Source: Rhizobium sp. J15
Lineage (GTDB): Bacteria; Pseudomonadota; Alphaproteobacteria; Rhizobiales; Rhizobiaceae
Length of the DNA: 64,000 nucleotides
Assembly (NCBI RefSeq): GCF_002531825.1
Contig: NZ_NWSX01000002.1
Span: forward strand, 62,001 to 126,000
Direction of reading: 5' to 3'
In this document: positions 21,433 to 53,936 of the stretch, one piece after another
Layout: each line of letters starts with the position of its first letter
Numbering within the stretch: the stretch's first letter is position 1
The notes under the pieces: generated by a model
What the model saw: only the letters and a program-made list of their open reading frames with translations
The model's database searches: none
Told to the model about the DNA's origin: nothing
Made by a program: the position numbers and the translations under genes

Positions 21433-22812
21433 TTATTTTGCGGCGCTGGCCGGACCGATCCAGATGGTCTTGATGTTCACGAATTCCCGGATCCCGTAGA
21501 CGCCGAGTTCACGGCCGTATCCGGACCGCTTGATCCCGCCGAAGGGATAGCGGGGATCGGACGCCACCATACCGTTGATGAAGACGGCACCCGCATCGAG
21601 ATCGCGGGCGAGCTCACGGGCACGCTTGACGTCGCGGCTCCAGATCGCCGAGCCAAGCCCGAATTCCGTCTGGTTTGCGAGGCGGATCGCTTCTGCGGCA
21701 GTCTTCACCCGAACGATGGCGGCAACCGGCCCGAAGGTTTCTTCCCGGAACGCGGTCATCTCGGGCGTTACGCGATCGAGAACGGTCGGCGGATAGTAGA
21801 AACCCTCGCCTTCCAGCGGCTTTCCGCCCATGGTCAGCGTGGCGCCGGCAGCAACTGTTTTCTCGACCTGGGCATGGAGGCCCGTCATAAGGTTGGCGCG
21901 CGCCATCGGACCGATGTTGGTATCGCGTTCCATCGGATCGCCGATCTTCAGCTTGGCAACGCCGGCACAGAACAGCTCGACGAACCGATCGGCGACACTC
22001 TCCTCCACGATGAAGCGCTTGGCGTTGACGCAGGACTGGCCGACATTGATGTAGCGTGCCTTGACCGCGACCGCTGCCGCTTCTTCGAGATCGGCATCAG
22101 CAAGGACGATGAACGGATCGGAGCCGCCGAGTTCAAGCACTTGCTTCTTCAGCGCTTTGCCTGCCTGCGCAGCAACGATCGCGCCGACTTCCGTCGAGCC
22201 GGTCAGGGTGACGGCGGCAATGCGGTCGTCCTCGATCAGGCCTGCAACCTTCCCCGGCTCGATCAGAAGCGTGCGGAACAAGCCGCTTGGGCAGCCGGCC
22301 TCCGCCATCACCTCCTCGATCGCAAGCGCGCATTGCGGCACATTGTTGGCATGCTTCAGGATCGCCCCGTTGCCGGCGGCAAAGGCCGGCGCGGCAAACC
22401 GGAAGAACTGCCAGAAAGGGTAGTTCCACGGCATGATGGCGAGAACGACGCCAAGAGGATCGAAAGCGACGGCACTCTCGGAAGCATTGGATTTGAGGGG
22501 CTCGTCGGCGAGATATTGCGGAGCATGCGCCGCGTAGAAATCGCAGTTGTAGGCGCACTTCTCGATTTCGGCTTCCGCCTCGACAATCGGCTTGCCCATT
22601 TCGAGGGTGATCATTTCCGCATAACGAGACTTGTTGGCCCGGAGAACCTTCGCCATCCCGCTCAAGAGGCCAACCCGTTCGCTGACGGGAACCTTCCGCC
22701 AGGTTTTCTGAGCCTCGGCGGCGGCAGAGAGCGCAGCCTCGACATAGCCGTCGTCATGGAGCTCATAGCGCGCCAGTTCGCTTCCGTTCGTGGGATTGAT
22801 CGCCGTTATCAT
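21433..22812 (-). CDS. NAD(P)-dependent aldehyde dehydrogenase (succinate-semialdehyde type)
   Basis: A 459-residue ALDH. MPWNYPFWQ lies near 128, the general base Glu in LELGG at 227, and the nucleophile Cys at 261 in GQSCVNAKRF. The C-terminal FGGIKRSGYGRE motif is present. Sequence style resembles the short GabD/Sad succinate-semialdehyde dehydrogenases. In this operon it probably oxidises a semialdehyde produced from the imported acid. Its ATG overlaps the isomerase stop by four bases (ATGA). Confidence 0.92.
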   Translation of the reverse strand: MITAINPTNGSELARYELHDDGYVEAALSAAAEAQKTWRKVPVSERVGLLSGMAKVLRANKSRYAEMITLEMGKPIVEAEAEIEKCAYNCDFYAAHAPQYLADEPLKSNASESAVAFDPLGVVLAIMPWNYPFWQFFRFAAPAFAAGNGAILKHANNVPQCALAIEEVMAEAGCPSGLFRTLLIEPGKVAGLIEDDRIAAVTLTGSTEVGAIVAAQAGKALKKQVLELGGSDPFIVLADADLEEAAAVAVKARYINVGQSCVNAKRFIVEESVADRFVELFCAGVAKLKIGDPMERDTNIGPMARANLMTGLHAQVEKTVAAGATLTMGGKPLEGEGFYYPPTVLDRVTPEMTAFREETFGPVAAIVRVKTAAEAIRLANQTEFGLGSAIWSRDVKRARELARDLDAGAVFINGMVASDPRYPFGGIKRSGYGRELGVYGIREFVNIKTIWIGPASAAK

Positions 22813-23639
22813 TCGGGCCTCCTGTATTTGCGTTCTTGCTTGGCATTTGCTGCCATGAATTGCTTCCAGCGCGGCAGGAAGGCAGCGCTATCGACCGTGG
22901 TTTTCGACGGGACGTATTCGAAGCCGATCGCCCCTTCGAAAGCCTGGGATTGCAGGAGCTTGAGCAGCGCTTCAAAATCAACGGTTCCGGTTTCCGGCTC
23001 ATGCCTGCCGGGGTGGTCGGCGATGTGGATATGGCCGATCCGGTAGTGGTTCGCAGCGATCCAGGCTTCAAGCCCAACGCCATTCGCACAGGCATGATAG
23101 GTATCGACGAGGAGCGAGATGTTGCCCGGTCCGAACATGTCCTGAACCTTGGCGGCATGCTCAAGCGTCGACATGGCATAGCCTGGCACGGCAGCGTCGC
23201 TGATCGCCTCGATCAGCACCTTGACCGATGTGCCTGCCGTACGCTCGACCGCATAGGCCAGGTTGCCCTGATAGGTTTTGGCGATGGAAGCGCCGTCGCT
23301 CGCCGACGGAACCCCTGCCATCGGGTGCACAAAAGGACAATCGACGGCGATCGCATAGTCGAGGGCGCGATCGAATTGCTCACGAAAGCCCGCCTCCCGT
23401 CCGGGGATGGCTGCGAGCCCCTTCTCACCCCGGCTGGCGTCGCCGACGGCAGCCGCCATCTGCGAGAGGACAAGTCCGCAGCGTGCCAGTTCCGCCCGCA
23501 TATCCGCCGGGGGAATCGCAAAGGGTTGCGGATGCTCGATCGCCGTGAAACCGGCATCTGCCGCAGCCGCAATCCGTTCAAAGAGCGGCAGCTCGGTAAA
23601 GAGATAGCCGATATGGGCTGACCATCGGTTTTGCGGCAT
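22809..23639 (-). CDS. Hydroxypyruvate-isomerase-like TIM-barrel protein
   Basis: A 276-residue sugar-phosphate isomerase/AP-endonuclease-2 fold protein of the Hyi/OtnI type. It begins SAHIGYLFTELPLFER. Metal-ligand regions are visible as LIEAIS (Glu near 143), LVDTYHACANG, HIHIADHPGRHEP and GFEYVPS. Such enzymes interconvert hydroxypyruvate with tartronate semialdehyde or isomerise 2-oxo-tetronates. The ATG shares one base with the upstream stop (TGATG) and the 3' end overlaps the ALDH start. Substrate is inferred only from family. Confidence 0.88.
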   Translation of the reverse strand: MPQNRWSAHIGYLFTELPLFERIAAAADAGFTAIEHPQPFAIPPADMRAELARCGLVLSQMAAAVGDASRGEKGLAAIPGREAGFREQFDRALDYAIAVDCPFVHPMAGVPSASDGASIAKTYQGNLAYAVERTAGTSVKVLIEAISDAAVPGYAMSTLEHAAKVQDMFGPGNISLLVDTYHACANGVGLEAWIAANHYRIGHIHIADHPGRHEPETGTVDFEALLKLLQSQAFEGAIGFEYVPSKTTVDSAAFLPRWKQFMAANAKQERKYRRPE

Positions 23640-32080: not shown

Positions 32081-32920
32081 ATGGAACATATGAATGAGCA
32101 TGTGGTGAAAATTCATCCGAGAAAAGGTTTCTCGTCAGTGAATTTTGCCGAGCTGTTTGAATATCGATACCTGCTTTACCTTTTTGTGTGGCGAGATGTG
32201 AAGACCCGCTATAAGCAGTCTTATATCGGCCTCATCTGGATTTTGCTGCAGCCGCTTGCAACCATGGTGATCTATTCTGTCTTCTTTGGTTATCTCGCGA
32301 GGTTTCCGTCAGAAGGCGTACCGTACCCCGTCTATATTCTTGCAGGCATCACCTGCTGGCAATTTTTCAGTCGCTCGTTGACAAGTGTCAGCACGAGCTT
32401 GGCGGACCAGCAAGCTCTCCTAAGCAAGATCTACTTTCCTCGGCTGCTCGCTCCGATCGCGGCCCTGCTCAGTTCGCTTTCCGACCTCGCCGTACTTTTC
32501 CTGCTGCTTCTTTGCGTGATGGTGATTTTCGGCGTTCCGCCATCCTTCAACATGGTTGTCGCTTTCGGCTACCTGATCCTGCTGGGTCTTTTAGCGCTTG
32601 CGATCGGTCTGATCCTCACTGGGCTCGACGCATTGATCCGCGACGTGCGCCACGGATTGGCGCTCGTTACACAGCTGTGGTATTTTGCATCTCCGATCAT
32701 CTATCCGATCGAACTCGTTCCAGAGCAATTTAGGTTTTACTATCTTCTCAATCCGACGACGCCATTGGTGCAGGGATTCCGTTGGGCGCTGCTCGGCGGA
32801 GGTGTTGCGGCGCCACCGGCGTGGGCAGTCATCACCTCCATCTGTGTCACCATCGTATTAATGCTGATTGGCTTGATGCTGTTCCAACGTCTGGAACGCA
32901 CGATCGTCGACCACATCTAG
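32081..32920 (+). CDS. wzm: O-antigen ABC transporter permease Wzm
   Basis: A 279-residue ABC-2-type permease with six predicted membrane segments. An amphipathic N-terminus (LFVWRDVKTRYKQSYIGLIW) precedes the first segment, as in TagG/Wzm/KpsM proteins, and the C-terminal half has the YLLNPTTPLVQGFRW motif. With Wzt it flips completed O-antigen on undecaprenyl diphosphate across the inner membrane. It lies 10 bp before wzt. Confidence 0.94.
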   Translation: MEHMNEHVVKIHPRKGFSSVNFAELFEYRYLLYLFVWRDVKTRYKQSYIGLIWILLQPLATMVIYSVFFGYLARFPSEGVPYPVYILAGITCWQFFSRSLTSVSTSLADQQALLSKIYFPRLLAPIAALLSSLSDLAVLFLLLLCVMVIFGVPPSFNMVVAFGYLILLGLLALAIGLILTGLDALIRDVRHGLALVTQLWYFASPIIYPIELVPEQFRFYYLLNPTTPLVQGFRWALLGGGVAAPPAWAVITSICVTIVLMLIGLMLFQRLERTIVDHI

Positions 32921-32930
32921 GGCCTCCGAA

Positions 32931-34160
32931 ATGTCGCATCCAGTTATCACGGTCGATAACCTGTCTAAATACTATCGGCTGGGCGAAACCGCCTCAAGTG
33001 GAGGTGCGCTGTCGTCGCTGACATCGCTTTTCAAGCCTCGTTCGACTGCACAAACAACGAGAGATCTTTGGGCGCTTAAGGACGTCTCTTTCGAAGTCCC
33101 TCGAGGACAGGTCACAGGGATTATTGGTCGCAACGGAGCGGGTAAAAGCACTCTGCTGAAAATTCTATCGCGCATAACGGACCCGACCAGTGGCTCGGCC
33201 ACCATTCATGGCCGCGTCGGCTCGCTACTTGAAGTGGGAACTGGCTTCCACCCTGAACTGACCGGTCGTGAAAATGTCTTCCTCAACGGCTCCATTCTCG
33301 GCATGGCACGAAGCGAGATCGAGAGGAAGTTCAATGAAATTGTCGAATTTTCTGAAATCGGCATTTTCATAGACACGCCGGTAAAGCGTTACTCCAGCGG
33401 CATGTACACGCGGTTGGCATTTTCGGTTGCGGCTAATCTGGATCCGGAAATCCTGATCATCGACGAGGTCTTATCCGTCGGCGATGCCGCTTTCCAAAAG
33501 AAGTGTCTGGTGAAGATCAATCATCTGATGAGGAGTGGCCGGACAGTCCTCTTCGTCAGCCACAATATCGGATCGATCAACGAGCTATGCAACTCGGCTG
33601 TCCTTCTTCACAAAGGAAGGATGGTAAAGTCGGGAGGCGTCAGCGAGACGATCGAGGAATACACCAAGCTGATTGCTGAGAGTTCCACGACCCAGAATGA
33701 AACCGGCTACCACGGTGACGGCGTCAGCTTGAATCGCATCGCTGTGACGAAATCGGATGGCACGCCGGAAACCGTTTTCGATCTCAACGATGAGATTGTC
33801 CTAAACTTCGAATATCAGGTGCATAAACCGCTTGAGACCTTGCAACTATGTATCGTCCTCTCGCGCAATATGATCGAACTGTTCTCCAGTTTCGATACCG
33901 ACGGCTTGGAAATGCCGTTGATTCGCCGCGACCCCGGCAGATATCGCGCATCTTTTCATATTTCACCGGGTTCGCTGAAGGCAGGCGGCTATTCGGTTGC
34001 GACTTATCTCGGCACGATGACAGACCTCTTATTGGAGGTGCCCGCCTCTACACAGTTCACCATCGAGGAGCTATCCGAAAATACTGCTTACCGAGGTTAC
34101 AGAAGGGAGCGGCTAGGCCATATCGTCGCCCCCGGCCTTTGGGATACAGTTGAGCTCTGA
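32931..34160 (+). CDS. wzt: O-antigen ABC transporter ATPase Wzt with C-terminal carbohydrate-binding domain
   Basis: A 409-residue ATPase. Walker A GRNGAGKST is at 66-74, the signature YSSGM at 154-158 and Walker B ILIIDE at 174-179. After the NBD a ~145-residue beta-rich domain (about 260-409, with FDLNDEIVLNFEY) matches Wzt_C, which recognises the modified non-reducing end of the polymer. This implies that chain length is set by a terminal modification, possibly methylation by one of the nearby enzymes. Confidence 0.95.
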   Translation: MSHPVITVDNLSKYYRLGETASSGGALSSLTSLFKPRSTAQTTRDLWALKDVSFEVPRGQVTGIIGRNGAGKSTLLKILSRITDPTSGSATIHGRVGSLLEVGTGFHPELTGRENVFLNGSILGMARSEIERKFNEIVEFSEIGIFIDTPVKRYSSGMYTRLAFSVAANLDPEILIIDEVLSVGDAAFQKKCLVKINHLMRSGRTVLFVSHNIGSINELCNSAVLLHKGRMVKSGGVSETIEEYTKLIAESSTTQNETGYHGDGVSLNRIAVTKSDGTPETVFDLNDEIVLNFEYQVHKPLETLQLCIVLSRNMIELFSSFDTDGLEMPLIRRDPGRYRASFHISPGSLKAGGYSVATYLGTMTDLLLEVPASTQFTIEELSENTAYRGYRRERLGHIVAPGLWDTVEL

Positions 34161-34182
34161 TATTGACAGACTAGGTTCCGAC

Positions 34183-34869
34183 GTGAAAATACTTGCAATC
34201 ATACCGGCACGGGCCGGCTCCAAGGGCATCCCTCGCAAAAACCTTCTGCCTCTGGGCAATAAGCCATTGGTTGCATGGAGCATTCAGCAAGCCCTGGAAG
34301 CAACCTCCATCGATCGAGTCGTTGTGTCGACAGATGGCGCCGAGATAGCCGACGTCGCGCGTCGCTATAAAGCGGACGTGCCTTTCCTGCGACCCGAGCA
34401 CCTTTCCACGGATACATCTTCAACAGAAGATGCGATGATCCACACGGTCGAAACGTTGGCAAAAACGGGCTATAATCCAGATTTTGTCATTCTTCTTCAG
34501 CCCACCTGCCCTATCCGCAAGCCAGGGTCTGTCGAACGCTCCATCCGGACTCTCTTCAACACCGGCGGCGACAGTGTCGTATCGGCGCGCGAGATCCATC
34601 CCTTCCTTTGGCAAAACCCCACAGACGCCCACGCGCACTACGATTTTCGCAATCGACCACGTCGTCAAGACGTTGCGGAGGAAGACGGGCTCTATGAGGA
34701 GAATGGTTCCATATATATAACTCGGACGGAAATCCTCACGCGCGACAAATGTCGCCTGGGTGGAAAGATTGGAATTTATCAGATGTCTGCGATTGAGAGC
34801 ATCGACATCGATACGATTGACGACCTTACGCTGGCGGAAGCCGCGCTTCGCTCGACAGGTATGCTATGA
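34183..34869 (+). CDS. CMP-nonulosonate (acylneuraminate-type) cytidylyltransferase
   Basis: A 228-residue NeuA/KdsB-like enzyme that activates a 2-keto-3-deoxy sugar acid with CTP. Visible are IPARAGSKGIPRKN near residues 7-20, VVVSTDGAEIADVA near 50 and FVILLQPTCPIR near 100. GTG 34183 is preferred: the frame opens with the standard VKILAIIPARAG and AGG stands seven bases upstream; a TTG at 34150 would overlap wzt. Its stop overlaps the NeuB-fusion start (ATGA), so both act together. Confidence 0.9.
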   Translation: MKILAIIPARAGSKGIPRKNLLPLGNKPLVAWSIQQALEATSIDRVVVSTDGAEIADVARRYKADVPFLRPEHLSTDTSSTEDAMIHTVETLAKTGYNPDFVILLQPTCPIRKPGSVERSIRTLFNTGGDSVVSAREIHPFLWQNPTDAHAHYDFRNRPRRQDVAEEDGLYEENGSIYITRTEILTRDKCRLGGKIGIYQMSAIESIDIDTIDDLTLAEAALRSTGML

Positions 34870-37115
34870 TCATCGACAGGAACATCTCCAAATACGCCGT
34901 ACTTTCCGACGCCTCGATTACAGAGGCGCTTACCCAGATCTCGAAGAATAAAAGGGGCTTTGTTCTTTGCCTTAGCCCCACAGGTCATCTGGATGGTATA
35001 CTCACGGACGGAGATTTCCGGCGATGGATATCGGCAACTCCGCGCATCGAGCTCGATCAACCCGTGTTGTCGATCTGCAACCGGTCGGCAGTCAGCGCTC
35101 GCGATGACAGCCCGACGGAACTACTTATCGGGCTGTTTAACGGCCAGGTTAAGTTCGTGCCGTTGATCGATGCGCATGCAAAGGTGACGGCGATTGCGTT
35201 GGCCCAGACCGACGATGGCTTCGAGATTGCGGGGCGGAAAATTGGTCCTGACCAGCCCAGCTTCATTATTGCTGAGATCGGGGTAAACCATAATGGCAGC
35301 GTTGCCGTCGCCAAACAGCTCGTTGACTGCGCAGTAGAGGCTGGCGCCGATTGCGCCAAGTTTCAGCTTCGCGACCTGCAGTCACTCTACCGGAACAATG
35401 GAAAATCCGACGATGCAAGCGCCGACCTTGGCGCGCAGTATACGCTCGAAGTGCTCGCCCGATCCAATCTTACGAATGAACAAATGGGCGAGATTCTCGA
35501 TTACGCCCGCTCGCGCGGCATCGTCCCCCTCTGCACGCCGTGGGATCTGCGTAGCGTTGCCTATCTAGCCGCCTGGGGCGTAGAGGCCTTCAAGATCGCA
35601 TCGGCCGATCTCACCAACCATCAGTTACTCCGCGCCGTAGCGGCCACTGGTAAGCCGATGATCCTGTCAACAGGCATGTCACGCGAAGCCGAAATCTTGG
35701 AAAGCGTTGGTGAATTGCGTCGAGCAGGCGCGCAATTTGCGCTGCTCCATTGCAATTCGACTTATCCGGCGCCTTTCAAAGACGTGCATCTCAGATACAT
35801 GGATCGGTTGGCAAAGCTTTCGGGCGCCATCGTGGGCTACTCAGGACATGAGCGAGGTTATTCGGTCCCGATCGCCGCGATCGCTCGCGGTGCCTCTATC
35901 ATTGAAAAGCATATTACATTGGACCGGAACATGGTCGGAAACGACCATAAAGTGAGCCTCGAACCCGGCGAATTCAAGGATATGGTGACGGCAATTCGCG
36001 AGATAGAAGCTGCTCTCGGAACATCCGCTGTTCGGGAACCTTCTGTCGGCGAAATGATGAACCGCGAAGTGCTCGCCAAGAGCCTTGTTGCCTCCTGTGA
36101 CATAGCCGAAGGAACAAAGATCGATGCTTCGATGGTGTCGATTACAAGCCCTGGGAAAGGGCTGCAGCCCAATCGCATAAACGAGCTTGTCGGCCGTGTT
36201 TCGAACCGCAAGATCGATGCGGGTGACTTCTTCTATCCGACGGATTTGCAGGATGCGATTGTCAGACCGAGGGCTTTCTCGTTCAAGCGCCCTTGGGGTA
36301 TCCCTGTTCGTTACCATGACTGGCGGCAACTTCATCAGGGACTGCCGATGGATTTCATCGAATTCCATCTTTCGTACAAGGATATCGAAGCCGATCTCGA
36401 TCGTTTTTTTGACACCGAAGTCCAGACCGGACTCGTGGTCCATAGCCCGGACCTCTTTGCGAATGATCACATTCTGAATCTGGCGGCCGATGACGAGGAA
36501 TATCGAGAAATCTCGATCGGCCACCTGCAATCAGCCATCGATGCTGCGCGAAGCCTGAGACGCTGGTTCCCCAATGCAGGAAAGATACCGCTTGTGGTGA
36601 GCCTCGGCGGCATGTCCCGCGATGAAGCTGTTCCCAAGGATCGTATTCCGGAGCTCTATCAACGGGTCGCGGACTCCCTTCTACGCGTCGACAGCACAGG
36701 CGTGGAGATCATGCCGCAAACATTGCCACCATTTCCGTGGTATCTCGGTGGACAGTTGCATTGCAATCTGTTCGTCGATCCCGAAGATACGCTGGAATTC
36801 GCGAAAAGCACCGGGCTCAGAATTTGCTTCGATGTTTCGCATTCCAAACTCGCCGCCAACCACCGGGGACGCTCTTTTGACGAATATATCGAGCTGTTGG
36901 CGCCTGTAACCGGCCATTTGCACATCGTCGACGCCGCCGGCGTAGATAGTGAAGGCCTGCAGATCGGCGAAGGGGAGATTGACTTTGTCCGGCTAGGCGC
37001 GCGCTTGGCCGAACTTAGCCCCGGTATTTCCTTTATTCCGGAGATCTGGCAAGGGCACAAGAATGCCGGTGAGGGATTCTGGATTGCGCTCGATCGGCTG
37101 GAAGGAATTCTGTGA
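34866..37115 (+). CDS. CBS - NeuB synthase - SAF - TIM-barrel isomerase fusion
   Basis: A 749-residue multidomain protein. Residues 1-115 look like a CBS pair (HLDGILTDGDFRRW). Residues 130-385 are a sialic-acid-synthase (NeuB) barrel: IIAEIGVNHNGS, PLCTPWD, LLHCNSTYP and EKHITLDRNMVGNDHKVSLEP. About 400-460 is an SAF/antifreeze-like domain (LVASCDIAEGTKID). About 470-749 is a second TIM barrel of the xylose-isomerase/AP-endonuclease-2 type with possible metal ligands in VEIMPQ, CFDVSHS, HLHIVDAAG and PEIWQGH. It condenses PEP with an aldose (family knowledge); the extra barrel may make that aldose (inference). Confidence 0.88.
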   Translation: MIIDRNISKYAVLSDASITEALTQISKNKRGFVLCLSPTGHLDGILTDGDFRRWISATPRIELDQPVLSICNRSAVSARDDSPTELLIGLFNGQVKFVPLIDAHAKVTAIALAQTDDGFEIAGRKIGPDQPSFIIAEIGVNHNGSVAVAKQLVDCAVEAGADCAKFQLRDLQSLYRNNGKSDDASADLGAQYTLEVLARSNLTNEQMGEILDYARSRGIVPLCTPWDLRSVAYLAAWGVEAFKIASADLTNHQLLRAVAATGKPMILSTGMSREAEILESVGELRRAGAQFALLHCNSTYPAPFKDVHLRYMDRLAKLSGAIVGYSGHERGYSVPIAAIARGASIIEKHITLDRNMVGNDHKVSLEPGEFKDMVTAIREIEAALGTSAVREPSVGEMMNREVLAKSLVASCDIAEGTKIDASMVSITSPGKGLQPNRINELVGRVSNRKIDAGDFFYPTDLQDAIVRPRAFSFKRPWGIPVRYHDWRQLHQGLPMDFIEFHLSYKDIEADLDRFFDTEVQTGLVVHSPDLFANDHILNLAADDEEYREISIGHLQSAIDAARSLRRWFPNAGKIPLVVSLGGMSRDEAVPKDRIPELYQRVADSLLRVDSTGVEIMPQTLPPFPWYLGGQLHCNLFVDPEDTLEFAKSTGLRICFDVSHSKLAANHRGRSFDEYIELLAPVTGHLHIVDAAGVDSEGLQIGEGEIDFVRLGARLAELSPGISFIPEIWQGHKNAGEGFWIALDRLEGIL

Positions 37116-48395: not shown

Positions 48396-48440
48396 ATGCC
48401 ATTAGGTAGCGCCGACTTGGATATCGGAAAGCAGAGCAGA

Positions 48441-49490
48441 ATGAAGACTGTAATTGTTACTGGCGGCTGTGGATTTATCGGTTCCCACTTCATCGAGGTT
48501 CTTCTTGAGAAGGGATATCGCGTCGTCAATGTCGACGCTTTGACCTATGCCGGTGACCCCATCAATACGCGGAGCTTCGCCGACAAGGACAACTATGCCT
48601 TTCTGCACGCCGACATTGGCGACAGCGCTCTGATTGCGGATGCTCTATATAAGTTTCGTCCGCATATGGTTTTCAATCTGGCGGCGGAAAGCCACGTGGA
48701 CCGCTCGATCGACAACGCGACACCTTTCCTTACAACAAACGTCATTGCAGTCCACAGCCTCCTCGATACCTGCCTTGTTTACTGGCGCAAGCTAAGCGAG
48801 ATCGAAAAGGCCGAGTTTCTCTTCGTCCAGATGTCGACCGACGAAGTCTATGGCTCCATCAGCGAAGGCGTCTTCACCGAAGAAAGCAATTATGCTCCCA
48901 ATTCGCCCTATGCAGCATCGAAGGCCGCCGGCGATCACCTTACACGGAGCTACCGGGTAACCTATGGCTTGCCTACGGCGATCGTGCATGCCTCCAATAC
49001 CTATGGTCCGCGTCAGTTTCCAGAAAAGCTCATACCGCATATGATTGCTTCGGCATTGGCCGGTAAACAGCTTCCGGTTTACGGAGCCGGCGACCAGGTT
49101 CGCGACTGGATGTATGTAGGCGACGTTGCGCGAGGGCTCGAGTATGTGGTCGCGGAAGGCAAAACTGGAGGCGTATACAATTTCGCCGGCGGACAGGAAC
49201 GTCGCAACATCGATACCGTCAAATCAATCTGTGCGATCCTCGATACGCTTGTTCCAAAGCAAGAATCCTACGCCGGATCCATCAGCCACGTTACGGACCG
49301 GCCGGGCCACGACGCGCGTTACGCCATGAGCAGTGAGAATGTCGGGCGTCTATTTGGGTGGAAGCCCGAGACCGCCTTCGAAGATGGTCTTGCAAAGACA
49401 GTCAGTTGGTATCTCGAAAATGGCAGCTGGATGGATTATATCCGCAACCGAGGATATTCCATACAGCGCATCGGGGGCGCCGATACATGA
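48441..49490 (+). CDS. rmlB: dTDP-glucose 4,6-dehydratase
   Basis: Converts dTDP-glucose to dTDP-4-keto-6-deoxyglucose. The 349-residue extended SDR has the NAD motif with Gly8, Gly11 and Gly14, the catalytic T133-D134-E135 and Y157-x-x-x-K161, and the family text [10 protein letters not shown] and [15 protein letters not shown] 48441 (MKTVIVTG) is chosen over ATG 48396. The stop overlaps rmlA (ATGA), as in many rml loci. Here it feeds a 3-amino sugar, because no rmlC/rmlD is visible. Confidence 0.95.
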
Positions 49491-50359
49491 GACGCGGCAT
49501 TGTTTTGGCAGGCGGCAGCGGAACCCGACTTGCACCTTTGACGACGGCGGTGAGCAAACAATTGCTGCCGATCTACGACAAACCGATGATATATTATTCG
49601 CTTTCGGCGCTGCTGTTGAGCGATATCCGAGAGATTTTAATAATCTCGACCCCGCGCGACCTTCCGCTGTTCCAGCATCTTCTTGGAGACGGCGCACGCT
49701 TTGGAATCAGTTTGCACTATGCGGTCCAGGAAAATCCAAACGGCCTAGCGGAAGCCTTCATCATCGGAGAGAAGTTTCTGGATGGCTTGCCCAGCGCACT
49801 GGTTCTCGGCGATAATGTTTTCTACGGCGAAGGGTTTTCGGATCATCTGATGACCGCGAGCAGCCGGACGCGAGGGGCGACGGTCTTCAGCTATCCTGTT
49901 CAGAACCCGAGAGATTTTGGCGTCGTTTCCTTCGGCGCCGATGGGCGGGCTTTGGCAATCGAGGAAAAGCCGGAAAAGCCGAAGTCTAACGCCGCCGTAG
50001 TCGGCCTTTACTTTTATGATGAACGTGTCGTGCAGTTTGCGCATGAACTTACGCCTTCGGCACGTGGAGAGCTTGAGATAACCGACATCAACAAGCGCTA
50101 TCTCGAAATTGGCGACCTTTATGTCGAGCAGCTTGGCCGCGGATTCGCCTGGCTCGATACCGGTACCTTCACATCGATGCTTGACGCGACCAACTTTGTC
50201 GCGACACTGCAGCGCCGCCAGGGTTTGCGCATCGCCTGTCTTGAAGAAATCGCATTCCGAAAGGGCTGGATTTCTGAAACCGACCTGCTCTCTCATGCCG
50301 AACGCTACAAGAACAGCGAGTACGGCAAATATGTACTGGAACTTCCTAATTTCGTTTGA
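49487..50359 (+). CDS. rmlA: Glucose-1-phosphate thymidylyltransferase
   Basis: Makes dTDP-glucose from dTTP and glucose-1-phosphate. The 290 residues match the RmlA short class. The [11 protein letters not shown] loop (9-19), [17 protein letters not shown] near 23, LGDNVFYG near 109, EEKPEKPKS near 163 and [10 protein letters not shown] near 225 are all intact. Start ATG 49487 overlaps the rmlB stop by four bases; a longer in-frame start at 49358 lies inside rmlB and is rejected. Confidence 0.96.
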
Positions 50360-50380
50360 GAGAGACTGAGTGTCCGAGCA

Positions 50381-51340
50381 ATGACCGTTCATTTCTGCAC
50401 GCTGTTCGACATGCGCTACGCGACACGCGGGCTGGCCATGCTTGAAAGCCTTCATGCCAGCTTCAAGGGCCACATGACGGTCACCATTCTCGCGATGGAC
50501 GATCGAGTGCCGGCGTTGATCCAAACAATGGGCCGTGCAGAATGGAAGGTCCTAACTGTTGATATGATGGGCGATGCTGAGCTGATCACAACTCGCAATA
50601 CCCGTCCGCATCGGGAGTTCTGCTGGACGTGCGCTCCAGCATTTTCAGCGCATATAGTCAATCAAAGCAAAGACGGTGACCTCGTCGTCTATGTCGATGC
50701 CGATTTGTTCTTTTTCGGGTCTCCACAGGTCCTTCTGGATGAACTTGCCGATGACGGCACAATTCTCATTCACGAGCATCGCTATTCAGCTGACCGTTTG
50801 CACTACGAACCTTCTTCCGGTCGTTTCAACGTCGGCTTCGTCGCGTTCCGTGTCGGTGATGAAGCGCGAAGCTGCGTGAGCCGCTGGCGCCAGCAGGTTC
50901 TCGACAAGTGTGTTCTCGATCCGGAAAACGGCTACTGCGGTGACCAGGGATATCTGAACGAATGGCCATCGCTCTATCCGGGATTACGCATTCTCAAGAA
51001 TCTCGGCGGGGGAGTTGCGCCGTGGAATCTCGTAACCTACACGGTTGGCGGGGATGCAGCGCAGCCGGTAGTCGATGACGCTCCCGTCGTGTTTTTCCAC
51101 TATCATGCGTTTCGGACGGTATCCGTAGCAGGGCTCGCACATATCGCAGCCATTCCCGCATGGGGATATGATTTTTCAAAATCAGCGAAGCGTCTTCTCT
51201 TTGCCAATTATGCAAGCCGGATTCGGAAGATCAGTTACCAAGCCAGAAAGGCCGGGTTCATGACTGCGGCGGATACAAGTCATCCGCTAAGGGATGCCAT
51301 CCGCTCCTGGCTAGGTGGTAATCTTATTTTAGCGATCTAG
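50381..51340 (+). CDS. GT-A-type glycosyltransferase (copy 1 of a paralogous pair)
   Basis: A 319-residue protein with a GT-A look. It opens FCTLFDMRYATRGLAMLESL, has a D106-x-D108 metal motif in VVYVDADLFFF, and ends its core with CGDQGYLNEWPSLYPG and GGGVAPWNL. These blocks recur in the gene at 60949-61920. The layout resembles GT8-like or nucleotide-diphospho-sugar transferase families. Sugar unknown; it follows rmlA, so a dTDP-sugar donor is a possibility only. Confidence 0.8.
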   Translation: MTVHFCTLFDMRYATRGLAMLESLHASFKGHMTVTILAMDDRVPALIQTMGRAEWKVLTVDMMGDAELITTRNTRPHREFCWTCAPAFSAHIVNQSKDGDLVVYVDADLFFFGSPQVLLDELADDGTILIHEHRYSADRLHYEPSSGRFNVGFVAFRVGDEARSCVSRWRQQVLDKCVLDPENGYCGDQGYLNEWPSLYPGLRILKNLGGGVAPWNLVTYTVGGDAAQPVVDDAPVVFFHYHAFRTVSVAGLAHIAAIPAWGYDFSKSAKRLLFANYASRIRKISYQARKAGFMTAADTSHPLRDAIRSWLGGNLILAI

Positions 51341-51400
51341 ACGCAGTCGACCCGAACCGGGGTTCCCGGGGTGGCCTGACGCGAAAATATGAGGGGTGAG

Positions 51401-52297
51401 ATGGCAAACGCAAGACAGGTGATCGTTCGATTACTACCGCCAATTCTCGCCGATCTTCTGCGCGCCGCAAAGCATCGTGTCGGACATGCCAACTCTTTCA
51501 AAGAAGCTTTGGGAAATGCCGTCTCCGGGGAAAGGCCTGAATGGGAAGCCGTCCCCGCCGATCGGTGGACCGCAAGCAATGGTTGGCTTCATCCTTCGAT
51601 TGTGGCAACGCAGATCGAGAAGTGGCGAGAGTTCTCGCGATCTATCCAAAGTCCGGAACCCTTCGGCAAGTCTCACGAGGCCAATCCCGAAGCCGCTATC
51701 AATATCAGTGCCCATAACATTACCATGACGTTCGGCTATGCTGTCGGTAGGGTCGTCGTTGAAAAACAAAGCGGCGATGCAACGCGACTTCTCGACTGGG
51801 GCGGCGGGATCGGCCACTATGCCTCACTTGCACGCGAGCTGTTTCCCGGTGTTCATTTTGACTATGTAATCCGAGAACTCGAGACTTTGGCAGAGGCAGG
51901 TCGGCCACTTTTGCCGCAGGTTCGCTTTCTTTGCGATGATGACCAGGCGCTGTCGCAATCTTATGATTTGATCTTTGCCAGCAGCTCGCTGCAGTACAGC
52001 CGAGATATTTATGGCCTTCTGTCGAAGATGGCAGAAAGCGGCAGCCGGTGGATAATGGTCTGTCGTATGCCGTTCATCGATCATGCGGACGATTTCGTCG
52101 TGCTGCAGCGTCCGCATCGCTATGGCTATAATACCGAATACACAGGCTGGTTTCTCAATCGCTTCAAATTTATCGACTTTATGAAAGCGAAAGGCTATCG
52201 GCTTGATCGGGAATTTCTGAACGACGAACGCCCCTTTGTGCCAAATGCAGTAGAACAGTGCACTTACAGGGGCTATCTGTTTGAAAAGATACGCTGA
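51401..52297 (+). CDS. TIGR04325-type methyltransferase
   Basis: A 298-residue protein resembling the TIGR04325 putative methyltransferases. SAM-motif text is RLLDWGGGIGHYASLARELF near 128, VIRELETLAEAG (motif II) and LIFASSSLQYSRD near 195. ATG 51401 is preferred: GAGGGGTGAG directly precedes it. An ATG at 51389 has no ribosome site. It sits between the rml genes and the aminotransferase, so it may methylate the 3-amino sugar (inference). Confidence 0.8.
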   Translation: MANARQVIVRLLPPILADLLRAAKHRVGHANSFKEALGNAVSGERPEWEAVPADRWTASNGWLHPSIVATQIEKWREFSRSIQSPEPFGKSHEANPEAAINISAHNITMTFGYAVGRVVVEKQSGDATRLLDWGGGIGHYASLARELFPGVHFDYVIRELETLAEAGRPLLPQVRFLCDDDQALSQSYDLIFASSSLQYSRDIYGLLSKMAESGSRWIMVCRMPFIDHADDFVVLQRPHRYGYNTEYTGWFLNRFKFIDFMKAKGYRLDREFLNDERPFVPNAVEQCTYRGYLFEKIR

Positions 52298-52375
52298 CGT
52301 CAGCGTTGGTCTTACGAGGATGGCCAGCCAGTTTGTCGGCAGGAACTGAACGTTTTTGAAGGGAGATTTCTTCTC

Positions 52376-53506
52376 GTGGACGCAGTGACGGAAAGCACAG
52401 TCGGCCTTGCCGATCCGAGACGCGATCTTGCTCGATTTGAAGACCAGTTGGTTGAGGCCGCAAGACGTGTCATTGCCAGCGGCTTCTACATCAATGGAAC
52501 CGAGGTACGCTTTTTCGAAGAAACGATGGGACGGGCTCTCGGTCTCGAATCGCCGGTCGTCGGTGTCGGCAGCGGAACGGATGCGCTGATCATGGCGTTG
52601 CTTGCAGCCGGCATTGGTTCTGGCGACGAAGTCATCGTCCCCTCGCATACGGCAGGTCCCAGCGTCGCCGCCATTCGTGCAGTTCTTGCCACTCCAGTGT
52701 TCGTCGACGTCGAGGCAGATACTGCCTGTGTCGATCCCGATTGCGTAGCGCAGGCTGTATCGCCGAGGACCAAAGCTATTCTGGCCGTTCACCTTTACGG
52801 CCATCCCGCGGATATGGATCGGCTAAAGCCAATAGCGAAACGTCACGACCTCGTCCTTATCGAAGATTGTGCGCAGGCGCAGGGTGCGCTACTCCATGAT
52901 CGACCCGTGGGCTCGATTGGGGACCTCGGCTGCTTCTCTTTTTACCCGACGAAGAATCTCGGCGCCATTGGCGATGGCGGCGCGGTCAGCGGCAGCAAAG
53001 AACGGCTGAAAATCGTTCGCAAGCTCAGAACCTATGGCTGGAGCGAGCCTCAATATTCTGATCTCGCGCTCGGGCGCTGTTCCCGCCTTGACGAAATTCA
53101 GGCCGCCTTCCTCAACGTGAAGTTTTCGACGTTGGACACAGACGTCAAGAGCAGGCGGCGCATCGCTGAAATATATAAGAATCGGCTTTCTGATCTGCCG
53201 ATCGAGCTACCTGTAGAACGGCCTGGGGCCTATCACGCCTACCATCTCTTCGTCGTCAAGACGGCTTCCCGTGATCCGCTTCGTGAATATCTTTCTAGGG
53301 CTGGCATCATGACAGGGCTTCACTATCCATTCCCTGTGCATGTCCAGCCGGGCCTTTCCCAAGGTGCACGCACTGCGGGCTCGCTCGTCGTAACGCTTGA
53401 TCTTCAAGCAAAAATCCTGAGCCTGCCGCTCTTCGTCACCATGACAGATGCAGAGATCGAAAGGGTTGTCACAAGCGTGCAAGATTTCTTCCGTGGCAGG
53501 CATTGA
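52376..53506 (+). CDS. DegT/DnrJ/EryC1 sugar aminotransferase (FdtB/QdtB-like)
   Basis: A 376-residue PLP enzyme. The Schiff-base lysine is K193 in SFYPTKNLGAIGDGG; the PLP-ring and phosphate regions are visible as GSGTDALIMAL (66) and IEDCAQAQGA (162). With the ketoisomerase next door it probably transaminates dTDP-3-keto-6-deoxyhexose to the 3-amino sugar. GTG 52376 lies 10 bases after GGGAG. A single base separates its stop from the next ATG. Confidence 0.9.
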   Translation: MDAVTESTVGLADPRRDLARFEDQLVEAARRVIASGFYINGTEVRFFEETMGRALGLESPVVGVGSGTDALIMALLAAGIGSGDEVIVPSHTAGPSVAAIRAVLATPVFVDVEADTACVDPDCVAQAVSPRTKAILAVHLYGHPADMDRLKPIAKRHDLVLIEDCAQAQGALLHDRPVGSIGDLGCFSFYPTKNLGAIGDGGAVSGSKERLKIVRKLRTYGWSEPQYSDLALGRCSRLDEIQAAFLNVKFSTLDTDVKSRRRIAEIYKNRLSDLPIELPVERPGAYHAYHLFVVKTASRDPLREYLSRAGIMTGLHYPFPVHVQPGLSQGARTAGSLVVTLDLQAKILSLPLFVTMTDAEIERVVTSVQDFFRGRH

Positions 53507-53507
53507 G

Positions 53508-53936
53508 ATGGCCGGCACAGCTCTCGATAAGATTACACGTGGAAAGGTCAGCCTATTCAAAGATGCCCGCGGAGCACTTGGGGTGGTCGATTTTTCCAAA
53601 GAGATTCCTTTTACGCCGGTACGAATGTTCTGGATTCATGATGTGCCGACAGGCGGACAACGTGGCGCCCACGCACACAAAGCCTGCACCCAGTTCATCA
53701 TATGTGGCCAAGGGCAAATAGAAATCGACGCGTTTGACGGCACGCGGAGAGAGGAAATCAAGCTATCCGCAGGCGAATATGTCAACCTCGTTCCCGGTAT
53801 CTTCGCGACGCTGACCTTTCCCCAGGAACATTCAACAGTGACGGTACTTTGCGACCGTCCGTACGAAGCAGATGATTATATCTACGACGCAGAGATGCTT
53901 GCGAGAGGTTCTATCGTTGCGGATGGGCGCAAGTGA
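53508..53936 (+). CDS. dTDP-4-oxo-6-deoxyglucose 3,4-ketoisomerase (FdtA/QdtA-like)
   Basis: A 142-residue cupin of the FdtA/WxcM-C group. The active-site pair H55-x-H57 lies in RGAHAHKACTQF, and VPTGGQRG, AGEYVNLVPGIFATLTF and the final DDYI are typical. It isomerises the 4-keto product of RmlB to the 3-keto sugar. FdtA and QdtA differ only in C4 stereochemistry and I cannot tell which applies. ATG 53508 is used; a longer frame (53448) lies inside the aminotransferase gene. Confidence 0.9.
   Translation: MAGTALDKITRGKVSLFKDARGALGVVDFSKEIPFTPVRMFWIHDVPTGGQRGAHAHKACTQFIICGQGQIEIDAFDGTRREEIKLSAGEYVNLVPGIFATLTFPQEHSTVTVLCDRPYEADDYIYDAEMLARGSIVADGRK

Follow-up and report, generated by a model that had tools for sequence, protein, structure and literature searches.

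A CBS-NeuB-SAF-TIM-barrel fusion protein of Rhizobium sp. J15 as a candidate Kdn synthase

The window analysed here, 64,000 nt of Rhizobium sp. J15 (contig NZ_NWSX01000002.1, positions 62,001-126,000, forward strand), encodes a 749-residue protein that joins a CBS pair, a NeuB barrel, a SAF domain and a second TIM barrel. This synthase and the activating enzyme encoded next to it most likely make 3-deoxy-D-glycero-D-galacto-non-2-ulosonic acid (Kdn), a nitrogen-free, sialic-acid-like sugar, for a surface polysaccharide. The fuller reading, a Kdn synthase whose C-terminal barrel supplies a mannose-type aldose and whose CBS pair senses a nucleotide, has in our judgement about an even chance of being right. 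At the level of sequence, the domains, the conserved residues, a missing SAF arginine, the gene partners and the membership of all fused proteins in one clade are established. The parts of the synthase gene, in window coordinates, are:

34866-37115, + strand: fused CBS-NeuB-SAF-TIM-barrel synthase, 749 aa, ATG to TGA, without internal stop
34866-35207, + strand: CBS pair, residues 1-114, with the motif TDGDFRR at residues 47-53
35319-36026, + strand: NeuB barrel, residues 152-387, a Pfam match; His328 and His349 align with two Neisseria NeuB histidines
36078-36248, + strand: SAF domain, residues 405-461, from Pfam
36147-36149, + strand: Ser428 codon, equivalent by alignment to Neisseria NeuB Arg314
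36270-37112, + strand: C-terminal xylose-isomerase-like TIM barrel, residues 469-749, from Pfam, predicted structure, and fold and sequence matches
36717-36719, + strand: Gln618 codon, equivalent to a Glu of MJ1311, invariant in 49 aligned barrels
36831-36842, + strand: Asp656 and His659, putative metal-site residues, invariant
36915-36923, + strand: His684 and His686, putative metal-site residues, invariant
37041-37043, + strand: Glu726, right after the last barrel strand, invariant

The open reading frame (ORF) has a single match in the 6.67-Mb assembly, and its frame is open and free of stops. Pfam places NeuB at residues 152-387 (E = 4.4e-81), SAF at 405-461 (3.9e-9) and AP_endonuc_2 at 495-737 (1.8e-21). 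In the window protein alone the CBS pair scores a weak 22.1 bits against PF00571, short of the gathering score of 24, and Pfam does not list it for the full-length sequence; among the aligned relatives, PF00571 is matched at E <= 0.1 by 40 of 40. AlphaFold2 returned a confident model of the full-length synthase (mean predicted local distance difference test score 91.2, predicted template modelling score 0.74), and the C-terminal barrel by itself scored 95.0 and 0.93. The four-part fusion proposed in an earlier note on this DNA therefore stands, as a single intact ORF supported by Pfam and by the CBS profile of its relatives.

A sequencing or assembly artefact has next to no chance of explaining the fusion, and we rejected it. 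Nothing was found in its favour, no frameshift or join interrupts the frame, and numerous independent homologues share the layout. The same architecture occurs in Rhizobium vallis (locus L023; barrel 96% identical to that of the window), on Ensifer canadensis plasmid pT173e (a full-length relative, 48.7% identity over the whole length, and the only relative in a plasmid search with the barrel) and in an alphaproteobacterial metagenome-assembled genome (L021; 70% identity), which argues against a joining artefact. A scan of 84,980 species genomes yielded at least 591 stretches matching the search patterns, and at least 555 encoded barrel relatives; the best 80 were examined. NeuB lies in the frame of the barrel in 79 of these 80 loci (in the exception, L086, a contig end truncates the locus), and a match to the CBS part of the window protein is also present in 73, so the layout is widespread. 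Taxa with relatives include Alpha-, Beta- and Gammaproteobacteria, Actinomycetota, Cyanobacteria, Chloroflexi and Lentisphaerae, among others. The rarity implied by the earlier note is contradicted by these counts and also in print, where NeuB with an isomerase-type domain was published in 2022 (PMC9000132). The gene is patchy in its distribution: it occurs in 2 of 148 genomes of the genus, 8 of 385 in a class sample and 5 of 398 in a phylum sample, counting the window's own genome in each.

Within the family, the barrel is more constant than the CBS pair. NeuB is in the same frame in 108 of 109 barrel ORFs (one per locus, some genes included more than once), the other one being cut by a contig end. 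After removal of near-copies, the CBS part is covered by the alignment in 76 of 92 fused proteins. By our reading of coordinates, the other 16 comprise 11 CBS-less proteins (about 605-655 aa), four proteins truncated where a contig ends, and L081, whose frame is disturbed. The CBS pair can thus go missing, while the barrel is retained.

A scan of viral contigs found no relative with the barrel alone and six with the barrel alignment; loci L101-L104 are CBS-less NeuB-SAF-barrel genes on IMG/VR contigs classed as viral. A divergent CBS-less branch (L013/L019, L105, L106), with about 28-31% identity to the window protein and the same barrel layout, may make a different sugar acid. A further NeuB-like ORF in L105, of 279 aa, belongs to a cluster that occurs in six loci. 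Long frames suggesting a fusion with a CMP (cytidine monophosphate) synthetase, for example in L040 and L074, were rejected because no match lies inside the frame; they look like GC-rich read-through.

Evidence on the sugar acid comes from the NeuB and SAF half. The window synthase has both domains of the NeuB superfamily (PF03102 and SAF) together with the conserved catalytic positions. These positions are near-invariant in fused and stand-alone proteins alike, including His328 and His349, whose equivalents in Neisseria NeuB we take to be metal-binding histidines. The fused proteins differ at the position of Neisseria Arg314, which presumably contacts the N-acetyl group of N-acetylmannosamine; the PDB titles of 4ipi and 4ipj describe R314A and R314K mutants of N-acetylneuraminic acid (NeuAc, Neu5Ac) synthase. 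None of 105 fused ORFs has Arg here (96 Ser, 4 Gly, 4 Ala and 1 Cys, some genes counted more than once), compared to 28 of 30 stand-alone NeuBs (the others have one Lys and one gap). Removing rows more than 95% identical leaves Arg in 0 of 88 fused versus 28 of 30 stand-alone proteins; the P values for this contrast count related proteins as independent and are given no weight here. Of the 30 controls, 24 are the best-scoring NeuBs of one order and six come from barrel-relative loci. Further signature residues are Arg169 and Tyr175 (each in 105 of 105 fused and 1 of 30 stand-alone proteins), Gly395 (105 of 105 and none) and Arg330 (98 of 105 and 0 of 30). A quick tree places all fused NeuB domains on one side of a branch (88 versus 30 rows; Shimodaira-Hasegawa-like approximate likelihood ratio test support 99), with the qualifications that it gave long-branch warnings, included the signature columns and after re-rooting carried a node label of 31, which we took as the moved label of 99. 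Since the fused proteins form one clade, the loss of the SAF arginine and the other signature residues are possibly single inherited changes.

A different nonulosonate (of the Neu5Ac, legionaminic or pseudaminic type), made with the barrel standing in for NeuC or some other early enzyme, is a distinctly unlikely product. The best NCBIfam model is that of NeuAc synthase, but the 329 bits against TIGR03569 fall below its equivalog cut-off of 399.65, as do the 239.1 bits against the pseudaminic acid synthase model TIGR03586 (cut-off 340.25). The surrounding gene island holds dehydratase-like, nucleoside triphosphate (NTP) transferase, DegT and FdtA genes, which speak for such a product; the RmlA/RmlB-like, DegT and FdtA genes 11-17 kb downstream look instead like a separate dTDP-3-amino-sugar route. 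The position of Arg314 is never Arg in the fused clade, and NeuC is almost absent from fused loci.

The near-absence of NeuC matters because this enzyme is the usual source of N-acetylmannosamine. Of 93 fused genes, 2 have a NeuC-type epimerase within 8 kb, both in loci that also have a stand-alone NeuB, versus 13 of 28 stand-alone rows. The latter count becomes 13 of 27 without L081, which is the front piece of a frame-broken fused gene, and 8 of 22 when the five seed loci are also left out. DegT aminotransferases are found near 9 of 93 fused genes versus 15 of 28 stand-alone rows. CMP synthetases, by comparison, are found near 69 of 93 and 15 of 28; on the same strand they lie directly upstream of 49 of the 93 fused genes and directly downstream of 12. 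The neighbour profiles were built here from five NeuC seeds, all from stand-alone loci, two DegT seeds, one from the window, and the window gene alone for the CMP synthetase; among the 93 fused rows are cut loci and the near-identical viral loci L102-L104. A synthase with a CMP synthetase and no visible amino-sugar route fits a substrate drawn from ordinary metabolism. The earlier note had suggested a self-contained route to the sugar acid, with the barrel perhaps generating or trapping the aldose. This idea is plausible and held up in part: the route looks nearly self-contained, the CMP-sugar synthetase being the only common pathway partner seen, and aldose supply by the barrel rests on its fold and on pathway logic. 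In two loci, L068 and L079, a fused synthase stands together with a stand-alone NeuB, NeuC and DegT, which suggests that these organisms make two nonulosonates.

Published work on a relative points to Kdn, and so supports the unusual sugar-acid product proposed in the earlier note. The capsule NeuB of Serratia marcescens KL1/KL2 is described as NeuB with an added COG1082 domain in a 2241-bp ORF (Anderson et al. 2022, PMC9000132). Loss of neuB or of neuAB in strain UMH9 left 4-fold less sialic acid by thiobarbituric acid assay, a defect that complementation repaired, and the mutants made no capsule; the wild-type capsule contained Kdn with about one-twentieth as much Neu5Ac, and both were undetectable after deletion of the whole variable capsule region (PMC9000132). 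A 2025 follow-up, which works with a KL2 neuB mutant devoid of capsule, restates that Kdn is the predominant sialic acid (PMC12077157). Kdn has also been reported from Sinorhizobium fredii, Streptomyces and Klebsiella K4, and appears in about 50 prokaryotic polysaccharide structures, mainly of environmental bacteria (PMC7845648). In an open-access literature search we found no paper on the source of the mannose-type substrate in bacteria without a phosphate route.

The C-terminal barrel has the fold of the D-tagatose 3-epimerase (DTE) type of ketose 3-epimerases. Its closest fold is MJ1311 (3wqo; Z 24.8, root-mean-square deviation 2.6, 241 residues aligned, 24% identity), followed by ketose 3-epimerases; endonuclease IV chains are also among the fold matches. 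By sequence, only MJ1311 and one endonuclease IV match in the PDB, the latter weakly (E = 0.0041). Asp656, His659, His684 and His686 are in register with MJ1311, whereas the Glu at the end of its strand 5 is Gln618 in the synthase. Residues invariant in 49 of 49 aligned barrels include Glu499 and His501 (strand 2), His526 (strand 3), Gln618, Asp656, His659, His684, His686, Asp689 and Glu726. The possible metal ligands mentioned in the earlier note are thus conserved as putative metal-site residues and kept in homologues. DTE-type ketose 3-epimerases have a Glu-Asp-His-Glu metal site; because the putative site here is Gln-Asp-His-Glu, with Gln at the first position in all 49, the barrel should not be filed as a 3-epimerase. 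Judging from fold and pathway logic, it is most likely a hexose isomerase or epimerase that forms mannose or mannose phosphate. No paper on the function of the NeuB-fused barrel was found in the open-access literature search. The other AP_endonuc_2 protein of the window (22809-23639, - strand) aligns with the barrel over 67 columns (probability 76), and this alignment keeps Asp656, His659 and both His in register. It is a stand-alone protein whose gene lies close to those of an Ldh_2 dehydrogenase and of a dehydrogenase of the isocitrate/isopropylmalate type, and is probably an unrelated catabolic isomerase.

The main alternative for the barrel is a Kdn 9-phosphate phosphatase, because of the strand 2 and 3 histidines, the endonuclease IV match and the known phosphate routes. 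NeuB would then condense mannose 6-phosphate with phosphoenolpyruvate, and the resulting Kdn 9-phosphate would lose its phosphate to the barrel, acting through an endonuclease-IV-like metal cluster. The known Kdn routes of Bacteroides, humans and Prymnesium do use phosphorylation and dephosphorylation steps (PMC6200933, PMC13214540). The invariant His501 and His526, alongside Asp656, His659, His684/His686 and Glu726, recall endonuclease IV, the only PDB sequence match besides MJ1311, and Arg330 of the fused clade could bind a phosphate. The top fold matches are nevertheless sugar epimerases and not phosphatases, and we know of no monoester phosphatase with this fold. We regard this phosphate route as unlikely. 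We would give the same weight to a catalytically changed barrel that serves as a docking or regulatory domain, with NeuB taking mannose or its phosphate from ordinary metabolism. The invariant Gln in place of the first canonical ligand would agree with this, and mannose 6-phosphate is an ordinary metabolite. The nine other invariant polar residues listed above, however, look like a working site, and among close relatives the barrel is always found with NeuB while the CBS pair is missing in 11 of 92.

The CBS pair may be a sensor of a CMP-sugar acid. A profile of the CBS parts of the relatives finds solved CBS pairs, the best being 4o9k, an arabinose-5-phosphate isomerase (E = 1.8e-11), along which profile positions 12-111 align. 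Arabinose-5-phosphate isomerase makes the aldose for 3-deoxy-D-manno-oct-2-ulosonic acid (Kdo), a sister sugar acid. Of 80 fused ORFs longer than 700 aa, 71 contain the motif [TS]DGD.RR and 46 contain TDGD.RR. ORFs with a CBS-like start and TDGDIRR also adjoin stand-alone NeuB genes in L137 (17695-18765), L141 (3755-4843), L146 (1748-2890) and L068 (6030-7097), the last beside both forms of synthase and clustering with the window's NTP_transferase gene. Our guess at the ligand comes from the arabinose-5-phosphate isomerase match and from this motif beside stand-alone NeuB genes.

For the Kdn synthase reading, we infer the product, the barrel reaction and the CBS ligand as follows. The metal-dependent C-terminal barrel would start from a common hexose, most likely fructose (or fructose 6-phosphate), and isomerise or 2-epimerise it to a mannose-type aldose. 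NeuB would condense this aldose with phosphoenolpyruvate, its active site covered by a SAF domain that lacks the arginine of N-acyl-sugar synthases. The adjoining synthetase would make CMP-Kdn for the polysaccharide, which the ABC exporter would move out of the cell. The CBS pair would sense a nucleotide, plausibly CMP-Kdn as feedback. A bolder version, possible but on balance doubtful, is a widespread one-protein Kdn module, in which the Gln-Asp-His-Glu barrel is a new hexose isomerase/2-epimerase handing mannose to NeuB, and the Kdo-pathway-related CBS pair binds CMP-Kdn and shuts the enzyme off.

Several observations weigh against the Kdn synthase reading. Kdn itself was measured in the Serratia capsule-region deletion and not in the neuB mutant, and the roughly 5% Neu5Ac beside Kdn, which also favours another nonulosonate to some degree, is left unexplained (PMC9000132). 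The window synthase is placed in the same clade as the Serratia NeuB by inference, from a comparison of domain description and ORF length only. The missing SAF arginine may, with all fused proteins in one clade, record one event unrelated to substrate, and the Glu-to-Gln change could weaken or alter catalysis in the barrel. The examined stretch contains no CMP synthetase for 23 of 93 fused genes, although some of these loci are short or cut. In other genomes, three shorter ORFs weakly match part of the barrel (E = 1.5e-5 to 3.3e-4), which limits the inseparability of barrel and NeuB to close relatives.

In the window, the genes directly 5' of the synthase are:

32081-32920, + strand: putative polysaccharide ABC exporter, membrane part, named from its position directly before the ATPase gene
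32931-34160, + strand: polysaccharide ABC exporter, ATPase part (ABC_tran; weak Wzt_C)
34150-34869, + strand: CMP-sugar-acid synthetase (CTP_transf_3; below the PseF and KdsB cut-offs)

The stop of the CMP synthetase gene overlaps the start of the synthase gene by four bases (ATGA), and sugar-nucleotide, glycosyltransferase and methyltransferase genes follow on the 3' side. The region 30878-61920, with exporter, glycosyltransferase, methyltransferase and sugar-nucleotide genes, has a third-codon-position G+C of 0.51-0.65 versus mostly 0.67-0.86 in most flanking ORFs, as in a transferred surface-polysaccharide island. The RmlB-like dehydratase, NTP transferase, DegT and FdtA-like genes (names partly inferred) within it lie at 48396-53936, and probably constitute the dTDP-3-amino-sugar route noted above, distinct from that of the synthase.

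This four-part architecture is common, and published work has linked a Serratia relative to Kdn. Our analysis adds a family-wide view of one clade that lacks the SAF arginine, retains the barrel alongside NeuB, and has a CBS pair and an unusual putative metal site. If the Kdn assignment is true, the combination of NeuB, a C-terminal barrel and no SAF arginine would tell probable makers of Kdn apart from those of Neu5Ac, legionaminate and pseudaminate, and a wrong sialic-acid name may be attached to many such genes. If the one-protein module is also true, there would be a class of CBS pairs sensing CMP-activated sugar acids, common to the Kdo, legionaminate-type and Kdn pathways.

Each part of the protein resembles a known system. 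The Neisseria meningitidis NeuAc synthase NeuB/SiaC (1xuu; E = 9.9e-49) shares the NeuB barrel, SAF domain and catalytic residues, and Campylobacter jejuni PseI (8h2c) shares NeuB and SAF. Both differ in having an Arg at the SAF position, in contrast to the Ser, Gly, Ala or Cys of the fused clade, and in being 349-residue chains without a CBS pair or second barrel. The C-terminal barrel shares its fold and its Asp/His/His register with the D-tagatose-3-epimerase-like MJ1311, which has its own Glu in place of Gln618 and whose PDB chain is not fused to NeuB. The CBS pair is best matched by that of 4o9k, of the KpsF/GutQ family, which we take to have been solved with CMP-Kdo and whose CBS pair is presumably joined to an SIS isomerase domain and not to a synthase. 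The Kdn-9-phosphate synthases of Bacteroides and Prymnesium likewise make Kdn from a mannose-type sugar and phosphoenolpyruvate, but use a phosphorylated substrate, and the available text mentions no such four-part protein (PMC6200933). For the Serratia KL1/KL2 NeuB, the available text names no CBS pair, and the product was observed there whereas here it is inferred (PMC9000132). The two are nevertheless alike in joining NeuB to a COG1082-type barrel, in length (about 745 aa versus 749 aa, that of the CBS-bearing form) and in their companions, neuA in Serratia and the adjacent CMP synthetase here.

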